Positions 22,276-43,825 of a stretch of 46,999 bases of DNA are shown here, one piece after another (positions within the stretch are counted from its first letter, which is position 1; every line of letters starts with the position of its first letter). Below the pieces are notes generated by a model. It worked only from the letters and a program-made list of their open reading frames with translations. It searched no databases and was not told where the DNA came from. The stretch spans positions 1 to 46,999 of the forward strand of contig NZ_AOJG01000015.1 in the NCBI RefSeq assembly GCF_000337375.1, read 5' to 3'. The translations under genes were made by a program, and so were the position numbers. The stretch is from Halorubrum lipolyticum DSM 21995 (GTDB taxonomy: Archaea; Halobacteriota; Halobacteria; Halobacteriales; Haloferacaceae).

Positions 22276-22360
22276 GTTTATAAACGGTTGTCTGTAGACC
22301 GGTGCCGAATGCGTGATCGGTGGCTCTGTGGTGAACACCTCCAAAGCCCCAGGCGCTCAC
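22276..22360 (+). repeat. Partial upstream unit of the dispersed repeat
   Basis: This stretch carries a first TTATAAACGG (22278-22287, inside palindrome GTTTATAAAC) and a first copy of the 20-base block GAACACCTCCAAAGCCCCAG (22333-22352). Both recur in the full element at 22361 and 22390. Spacing between TATA and block is 55 bases here against 29 in the complete copy, so this looks like a partial or decayed tandem unit. A degenerate counterpart lies at 43741-43808 beside the second copy. Confidence 0.75.
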
Positions 22361-22706
22361 TTATAAACGGTCGGCAGCGAATCGACGGCGAACACCTCCA
22401 AAGCCCCAGGCGGGAGGCGGGCGCACGCTCGTTTCGCGCTTCAGTCGCTCACTTCGTTCGCTCCCTCCAGTGCTTACGTCGCCTGCGCCCGCCTCCCACC
22501 TGCCCCTTTGAGTCCCACCCCGCACCGCCCCGCACCTCACGCCTCCCCAGCCTCGTCACCGGACTGCGTCCGGTTGCAAGCGAGAGCTCCGCTCTCGCCC
22601 TGTCGGTCGCCCTCCGCGTTGCTCCGGACGACCGACTCCCTCGCGCGTGCGACTCGCGCCCTACGGGCGCTCGTCGGCGCGCGCCGACCGCGGTCGGTAT
22701 AAATAA
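22361..22706 (+). repeat. Structured dispersed repeat, copy A
   Basis: TATA-like TTATAAACGG (22361) is followed 29 bases later by block 1, GAACACCTCCAAAGCCCCAG (22390-22409). A hairpin follows with perfect 14-base arms (22412-22425 and 22484-22497) and a 58-nt loop. Then come block 2 (22502-22520, GCCCCTTTGAGTCCCACCC), block 3 (22536-22552), further hairpins, block 4 (22634-22650) and GGCGCGCGCC (22676-22685). TATAAATAA (22698-22706) closes it. The same order occurs in reverse orientation at 43416-43740 with different stem sequences. It fills the gap between ncsA and the DUF4442 gene; no protein frame is convincing. Confidence 0.9.
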
Positions 22707-42640: not shown

Positions 42641-42739
42641 GATGTGGGAGCGGAGCGTCGACGGCAACAGGCGAGACCGCCGGAGGCGGCTCGGACCGGA
42701 CGCGAGGCTTATTTATCGCCGGCGCGTATGCCCCCGCCC

Positions 42740-43420
42740 ATGGACGAGAAGACCTCCGAGCTCCGCGACATCTTCGTCGAGACCACCGGGTCGGAGACGG
42801 TCACCGAGCGGCAGGCGGAGTCCCGCGGGACGCTCACCGACCGCGACGAGGCGGCGGTCGACGAGCGGGTCCGCGAGCTCGTCGCCGCGATGCGAGAGCG
42901 GTACGACTTCTCGACCGACCTCGGCGACGAAACCTACGCGCGGATCGCCCGCGGTCGCTTCGAGGAGGAGGACGACGAGGCGATCGCGACCGCGCTCGTC
43001 GAGGAGCGGGAGGGGGACGAGGAGCGGGAGGGGGACGAAGCGGAGACCGAGTCGGAAGTCGCACCCGTCCTCGAGCCCTCGACCGTCCGCGACGCGCGGC
43101 TCGACCTCCACCTCGTCCGCGAGGCCGACCGCGAGGTCGACGACGACGCGTTCGAGTACGGCGATCTGAAGCAGCTGACGGCCGAGGGGCGCTCGATCGT
43201 CGAGTGCGCGGACGCCCTCGACGCCGACCCCGACACCGTCGCGAAATACGCCCGGATCGCCCGCGTGGACCTGACCTCCACCCGCGCGAACGACCGGTTC
43301 CGCGACGAGTTCCGCGACCTCCTCACCGACGCCGAGATCGAGGGCTCGCACGCCGAGACCGCCCGCGACGACGGGCTCGAAGCGGCGACCGAAGACATGG
43401 AGACGGACACGAACTTATAA
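42740..43420 (+). CDS. Conditioned-medium-induced protein 4-like (Cmi4-like) helix-turn-helix protein
   Basis: The 226-residue acidic protein begins MDEKTSELRDIFVETTGSETVTERQAESRGTL, split after the first helix, which I recall from haloarchaeal proteins named 'conditioned medium-induced protein 4'. A charged middle has EEREGDEEREGDEAE. The C-terminal part (KQLTAEGRSIVECADALDADPDTVAKYARIARVDL) reads as a helix-turn-helix, suggesting DNA binding. TTATTTAT (42709-42716) lies 24-31 bases before the ATG at 42740, favouring it over an ATG at 42728. The stop codon lies in TTATAA at the edge of repeat copy B. Confidence 0.7.
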   Translation: MDEKTSELRDIFVETTGSETVTERQAESRGTLTDRDEAAVDERVRELVAAMRERYDFSTDLGDETYARIARGRFEEEDDEAIATALVEEREGDEEREGDEAETESEVAPVLEPSTVRDARLDLHLVREADREVDDDAFEYGDLKQLTAEGRSIVECADALDADPDTVAKYARIARVDLTSTRANDRFRDEFRDLLTDAEIEGSHAETARDDGLEAATEDMETDTNL

Positions 43421-43740
43421 AACGTATGCGGGGCGCGCGCCTCCGAGTGGCCGAGAGGCCACGAGGAGCACGCGCGAGGGAGTCGCGAGCAGAGAGGGAC
43501 CTCCGGTCCCTCATGCAGCCGGCGCGCAGCGCCGGCGACGAAGGGAGCGACGGGGCTGGGGAGGCGTGAGGCTGTGCGGTGCGGTCGGGTGGGACTCAAA
43601 GGGGCAGTCGCTGAGGCGCAGGGGACGCAAGGACCACAGGGAGTGAGCGAAGCGAGCGACCGAGGACCGCAGCGAGCGTGCGCCTCAGCGACTGGGGCTT
43701 TGGAGGTGTTCACCGCCGGTCCACCGTCAACCGCTTATAA
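43416..43740 (-). repeat. Structured dispersed repeat, copy B
   Basis: Read on the minus strand, TTATAAGCGG (43740-43731) is followed 29 bases later by block 1 (43711-43692). A hairpin with perfect 16-base arms (43694-43679 and 43620-43605) and a 58-nt loop follows. Then come block 2 (43605-43587), block 3 (43570-43554), block 4 (43484-43468), hairpin GTGGCC-GAGA-GGCCAC (43447-43462) and GGCGCGCGCC (43441-43432). Blocks are identical to copy A at 22361-22706 while stem sequences differ. It fills the 405-base gap between the convergent Cmi4-like gene and srp54. A degenerate upstream unit extends to about 43808. Confidence 0.9.
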
Positions 43741-43825
43741 GCGAGCGACTGGGACTTCGGAGAAGTCGTCCCTCGATCCACCGTCAGCAACGGCTCGTTA
43801 TAAACAACCGCCCTCGATCAACGCT
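43741..43825 (-). repeat. Degenerate upstream unit of repeat copy B and srp54 3' flank
   Basis: Read on the minus strand, TTTATAACGAG (about 43805) and GAAGTCCCAGTCGCTCG (43763-43747) are decayed versions of the TATA and block 1 of the repeat, mirroring the partial unit at 22276-22360 beside copy A. A small hairpin (GACTTC-TCC-GAAGTC) lies within. No gene is present. Confidence 0.55.

Follow-up and report, generated by a model that had tools for sequence, protein, structure and literature searches.

Known repeats and the R1 family

The closest described systems are the SMRs and PATEs of Haloquadratum walsbyi. SMRs are transposase-free and occur in many copies; their terminal inverted repeats (TIRs) are not related to those of known transposons, they show no target duplication, and how they are mobilised is not known (PMC3119063). 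They are about 80-110 bp long and homogeneous, commonly with more than 95% identity (PMC3119063). PATEs are derived from IS605 and lack TIRs, and their mobility is reported to depend on a Y1 transposase (PMC3119063).

The locus described here lies in a 46,999-nt stretch of the Halorubrum lipolyticum DSM 21995 genome (the window), which carries two copies of a repeat built around a conserved hairpin, R1. The family resembles SMRs in lacking a transposase and in its many copies, and a TIR-bounded subset also in having inverted repeats without target duplication. However, the R1 units of Halorubrum span 300-540 bp, are strongly diverged and contain a hairpin core that is class-wide; the best unit pairs are 92-96% identical and most are far lower, in contrast to the homogeneity of SMRs. 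With PATEs the family shares palindromes, the lack of target duplication, core-deleted derivatives of about 52 bp and nested inserts into palindromes, but a subset has TIRs and inspection found no IS605-type ends at R1. MITEs are likewise short, non-coding, TIR-bounded and high in copy number, whereas R1 units have no target duplication and no parent transposon that could be found, and their internal structure is conserved across the class. Bacterial REP/BIME elements are also intergenic, numerous and made of hairpins with conserved mismatches, but R1 elements are longer and multi-hairpin, and the H. lipolyticum genome has no match to a Y1 (RAYT-type) transposase. The large structured ncRNAs of Rfam resemble R1 in their extensive covarying structure and intergenic location; here, however, the RNA is putative and no Rfam model comes at or near threshold.

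Two specific origins were rejected on the evidence of the H. lipolyticum genome: IS605/PATE, by zero Y1_Tnp matches alongside 94 R1 copies, and an IS110 bridge-RNA element, by zero IS110 recombinase matches. Literature searches by motif letters and by topic returned the Haloquadratum SMR/PATE paper as the only related one (PMC3119063), and a paper on vesicle ncRNAs reports no common motif (PMC10927574). The hairpin repeat family is apparently undescribed, being absent from Rfam 15 and from the open literature searched.

The two copies in the window

The two copies were recognised in a sequence-only reading as inverted repeats with four shared blocks. The blocks are indeed present in the same order in both, identical over 20, 21, 18 and 18 bases, and a TTATAA starts 30 bases before the AACACC of block 1 in each. 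The common order and spacing stand as described but are not specific to the pair, being a property of a family of about 94 copies in the genome. The outer arms differ, GGGAGGCGGGCGCA in copy 1 and CAGTCGCTGAGGCGCA in copy 2, yet in each copy the arm pairs perfectly with its partner around exactly 58 nt, as claimed; the later hairpin also keeps its pairing in both copies despite its changed sequence. Allowing up to 3 mismatches, block 1 occurs three times and block 2 twice in the window, against 0.00 expected for each in the shuffled window. Folding was far more stable than in shuffled sequences (z -5.7 to -6.2) for copy 2 on either strand and for copy 1 on the plus strand.

Copy 1 is located between divergent genes, upstream of a plus-strand ORF. 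Copy 2 is located between the 3' end of a gene that we take from its protein sequence to encode SRP54 and a convergent gene, the stop codon of which lies in the last TTATAA of the element. Both copies are preceded by a decayed tandem unit (Table 1). Small hairpin pairs (GCCGGC..GCCGGC, GAGGGACC..GGTCCCTC and others) are nested in the loops of many copies, including window positions 22553-22636 and 43479-43555, and also occur in a Haloterrigena plasmid (L223:1720-2220). They appear to be mobile hairpins of a second kind.

Table 1. Positions of the repeat features within the window
Feature	Position	Strand	Remark
Decayed upstream 57-bp-type unit, copy 1	22276..22357	+	TTATAA box and exact second block 1 at 22334-22352; 57-bp spacing in relatives
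5' TTATAA box, copy 1	22361..22366	.	Palindromic; unit boundary, only putative promoter
R1 hairpin domain, copy 1	22391..22520	- (strand with conserved structure)	Covariance model match 136.2 bits; alignment A2
Conserved block 1 GAACACCTCCAAAGCCCCAG	22390..22409	+	CAAAG pairs with CTTTG of block 2
Variable outer stem, left arm GGGAGGCGGGCGCA, copy 1	22412..22425	+	
58-nt inner part, copy 1	22426..22483	-	Chained 2-bp steps and tandem G-A mismatches, GNA-type loop at end
Variable outer stem, right arm TGCGCCCGCCTCCC, copy 1	22484..22497	+	
Conserved block 2 CTGCCCCTTTGAGTCCCACCC	22500..22520	+	
Conserved block 3 CCTCACGCCTCCCCAGCC	22535..22552	+	
Hairpin II region with nested extra hairpins (inserted modules), copy 1	22553..22636	.	
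Conserved block 4 CGACTCCCTCGCGCGTGC	22633..22650	+	
Hairpin III, copy 1	22642..22685	-	TC/TC on plus is tandem GA/GA on minus
3' TATA-like box, copy 1	22698..22705	.	
R1 hairpin domain, copy 2	43587..43710	+ (structural strand)	Covariance model match 125.5 bits
Variable outer stem arm CAGTCGCTGAGGCGCA, copy 2	43679..43694	-	
Variable outer stem partner arm TGCGCCTCAGCGACTG, copy 2	43605..43620	-	
Hairpin III, copy 2	43432..43476	+	Minus GTGGCC-TCTC-GGCCAC; plus GAGA loop and GA/GA
5' TTATAA box and decayed upstream unit, copy 2	43724..43809	-	
3' TTATAA, copy 2	43415..43420	.	Includes TAA stop of convergent gene 42727-43420

Structure, covariation and strand

The paired structure is under selection. 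In a cross-genus alignment of 36 R1 sequences from many genera with 38 pairs, both sides have changed in 30 of the 38 and 94.5% of the cells are paired, which bears out the earlier claim of selected structure. The covariation check proposed with that claim gave a score of 0.527, compared to 0.171 for shuffled alignments, none of 500 of which reached it, and 0.07-0.10 with slid partners; covariation above controls is what a structured ncRNA should display. CAAAG/CTTTG becomes GAAAG/CTTTC in Halobaculum and Halorussus copies, a compensatory change between genera. The inner part of R1 consists of a chain of 2-bp steps with tandem mismatches between them, and the steps covary one by one. The distance between blocks falls into classes of 101-103, 108-111 and 117-119, which differ by about one 8-nt module.

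The strand on which the sequence-only reading placed the structure was the wrong one: the opposite strand is favoured by the tandem G·A mismatches, by the tolerance of G·T relative to A·C, by the folding energy and by the loop types. On this structural strand the inner mismatches are G·A (297 and 121 A/G cells versus 1 and 6 C/T cells), with hardly any pyrimidine-pyrimidine mismatches. Hairpin III has an invariant TC/TC, which reads GA/GA on the structural strand, flanked by freely varying stems. The G·T to A·C ratio is 39:9 in the cross-genus alignment and 76:44 in the Halorubrum alignment, and the helices of the whole element lean in the same direction (193:139). Copy 2 folds at -177 kcal/mol on the structural strand vs -155 kcal/mol on the other. 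Of 107 triloops on the structural strand 79 are GNA, and 30 of its 35 GNNA tetraloops have a pyrimidine as the third base and are not GNRA. In DNA, the mini-hairpins c(GNA)g and c(GNNA)g have exceptional stability. By these thermodynamics the loop types would fit stable DNA mini-hairpins better than the GNRA loops of RNA. Covariation, strand-specific G-A mismatches, the G-T:A-C bias and the loop types all count for a structure formed by a single strand.

Palindromes might also be kept perfect by template-switch correction, as a mutational process, together with gene conversion alone, with no selection on structure. Replacement of whole stems suggests conversion, and loop inversions occur (L049, L076). 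The conserved mismatches largely refute this very improbable explanation: the tandem TC/TC (plus) persists unchanged within otherwise perfect, freely varying stems. The pattern is also strand-asymmetric and the 2-bp steps covary individually. Conversion between copies can account for whole-stem replacement, but not for why invariant mismatches persist. In two copies (L049, minus-strand copy, element offset 2958; L076:6035-6164) the arms are intact but enclose an inverted stem-I loop; this is a DNA-level inversion between the arms. The shape is strictly conserved despite the changing sequence, probably because the family spreads or functions in a single-stranded form.

Family size and distribution

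A covariance model built from the stem-I domain (R1) was used to count copies. It matched in 51 of 52 Halorubrum genomes, in line with the earlier remark that similar sequences are scattered through this genus. The family is not restricted to Halorubrum, since the R1 core is class-wide, occurring in 229 of 292 Halobacteria genomes and 63 of 77 genera. The model finds 94 matches in the H. lipolyticum DSM 21995 genome, where copy 2 as a BLAST query yields 79 matching pieces. The copy number within Halorubrum ranges from 0-1 (G025, G034, G041, G049) up to at least 65, and some genera of other families have 94-104 copies by the same model. Among the exact block 1 matches listed from public genomes, all are Halorubrum except one uncultured archaeon.

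The conserved core is a hairpin of about 120 nt that occurs as singletons, as inverted pairs, or within 300-540-bp units in Halorubrum. Outside Halorubrum, R1 is found either singly or in inverted pairs; the two members are separated by about 30 nt, and the pair has outer inverted repeats. The gene context of 93 sites was scored from home-made gene calls: convergent genes flank 43 of them and divergent genes 13, and the two codirectional settings account for 25 and 12. Both orientations occur with respect to the preceding gene.

No Rfam family matched the window at the gathering threshold, and at E<=5 matches were at chance level; no tRNA or tmRNA was found. Among 50,697 phage records there was no match.

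Boxes, tandem units and terminal inverted repeats

The TTATAA box was earlier proposed as a promoter for the strand then read, which is not supported. The box is palindromic, belongs to a 57-bp tandem unit and, by inspection, has a BRE-like flank on the other strand only. Most copies have a second box at the other end. The 57-bp units upstream are sometimes identical duplicates. Upstream tandem units of 51 or 57 bp reach up to six copies (L136, L078, L121, L053); some of these arrays are identical and some lack the TATA box.

The boxes bear on the main rival explanation, possible though on balance unlikely: a multicopy family of transcribed structured ncRNA, encoded on the strand opposite to the one first read, with the TATA-like box by hairpin III as its putative promoter and dispersal as a by-product, as SINEs arise from RNA genes. 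A TATA-like box follows the conserved end by 7-9 nt in 49 of 105 copies and by at most 40 nt in 68 of 105, over a background of 2%, and inspection showed BRE-like bases on the side of this box. Also in its favour are the purine-rich loops and tandem G-A motifs, both characteristic of RNA, the tolerance of G-T relative to A-C, the class-wide conservation of the structure and, on plasmids, the fixed position of R1 by a conserved noncoding element. However, the spacing from box to element end varies and the predicted start falls inside hairpin III. Singletons outside Halorubrum were seen on inspection to have no TATA-like box just upstream, the terminal tetraloops are GNYA rather than GNRA, and no Rfam family matches.

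The limits of a unit are clearest in three copies from Halorubrum sp. CSM-61, 92-96% identical, in which the unit is bounded by inverted repeats TGATCGATAGCGGGAGTGGGTATAGCA and the flanks are otherwise unrelated. This repeat occurs 51 times in the H. lipolyticum genome versus 0 for a control pattern, and all 12 TIR units examined there, 296-542 bp in length, contain block 1. TIRs are 25-50 bp long in some Halorubrum units. Both TIR ends are found in 10 of 137 copies; most copies, including both in the window, are without intact TIRs. No consistent target-site duplication was seen at TIR units or inverted pairs. An autonomous element with the same TIRs was not found in the H. lipolyticum genome; among the listed positions, inward-facing pairs span about 300-640 bp, which is too short for a transposase. 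A small conserved reading frame (MSDGDDRL-like) ends in TTATAA at the right end of TIR units (L302-L331); it is probably an incidental effect of the repeat sequence.

Filled, empty and diverged sites

Presence and absence of the element at orthologous sites can be observed directly. At the copy-1 site and at the SRP54 3' site the element is present in many species, with a mean 5' arm identity between species of 0.69 and 0.57 respectively, and the arms mostly pair with their own partner. In other species the two sites are empty, and clean absences are common. At the SRP54 3' site, G037 compared with G016 lacks exactly the stretch between two TTATAA boxes. At the copy-1 site G004 has only a 57-bp-type remnant, and core-deleted solo units occur. 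With many copies at the same site in many species, recent transposition is rare.

A TnpB-type (IS1341-like) element is inserted at TTTATA just upstream of an SRP54-adjacent copy (L227; G004:C12:63700-66500). In several Natrialbaceae-like genera (L294, L295, L296) an R1 copy lies between nucS-like and endA-like genes, the names being presumed from their sequences. It is the sole R1 copy found in G155, where the outer stem has mismatches.

Elements at gene 3' ends could have been adopted by the host as REP/BIME-like cis elements that serve, for instance, to terminate transcription, protect mRNA ends or organise the chromosome, with vertical maintenance thereafter. The 43 of 93 sites between convergent genes, the retention of the same sites across species with changed stems still paired, and the nucS-endA copy of several genera are all in keeping with such a role. 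It is nevertheless improbable: several Halorubrum genomes have 0-1 copies, clean absences are common, the orientation to the preceding gene is mixed, and the single G155 copy has a mismatched outer stem.

Plasmid setting

On plasmids of many genera an R1 of about 109 nt occupies a fixed position, some 470-550 nt upstream of an OB-fold gene that is replication factor A-like (RPA-like) by a sub-threshold match. The stretch between R1 and this gene, about 490 nt long, is a highly conserved noncoding element (L332-L336, L357-L364; e.g. L336:4465-4960), beside which the place and orientation of R1 are fixed on about 20 plasmids. A combined query that included this element matched 166 plasmid records, often 80-90% identical across genera, and R1 follows the element in 5 of 12 cases aligned. 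The element has no Rfam family match and is absent from the H. lipolyticum genome; it is possibly a large ncRNA or a replication element. Its association with R1 is a new observation.

The fixed place and orientation look like function rather than random insertion, and this setting is the strongest ground for keeping a true function of R1 in consideration. The plasmid location may be the original setting. Tentatively, and rather unlikely, R1 could be an undescribed class-wide structured module, made of RNA or of one folded DNA strand and bound by a single dedicated partner, whose original function on plasmids lay beside the 490-nt element and the RPA-like gene and which spread to chromosomes in up to about 100 copies.

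A probable non-autonomous mobile element

The "structured non-autonomous mobile repeat" is one of two interpretations from the sequence-only reading that survive. It is also the one modestly favoured here: both loci probably are old haloarchaeal non-autonomous, non-coding repeats around R1, multiplied as mobile DNA, whose shape is kept through recognition of a single strand by a trans-acting protein. The family would multiply as mobile DNA by means of a trans-acting enzyme. A trans-acting protein would recognise the hairpin as a folded single-stranded nucleic acid, DNA slightly more likely than RNA, during mobilisation or processing. The family would be maintained by selection of active copies together with exchange of segments between copies.

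Variation in copy number from 0-1 to at least 94, filled and empty sites, TIR units, core-deleted units and nested inserts count in favour of this mobile-element reading, as does the intergenic location with 43 of 93 sites between convergent genes. The lack of target duplication, the rarity of recent transposition and the few intact TIRs count against it. The search for a mobilising enzyme gave no match to Y1 (IS200/605) or IS110 transposases in the 94-copy H. lipolyticum genome, so neither can be the present mobiliser. Low-copy genomes do have them (G041 with Y1, G049 with Y1 and IS110), and IS110 is present in 17 of 52 Halorubrum genomes.

Biological meaning

A repeat present in most haloarchaeal genomes combines strict compensatory evolution with a repeating architecture of 2-bp steps and tandem G·A mismatches. 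R1 repeats may explain some of the dubious intergenic "hypothetical protein" calls. The family is directly testable in culturable species, and would open up either a new mobile system that depends on single-strand structure or a new family of large archaeal ncRNAs.
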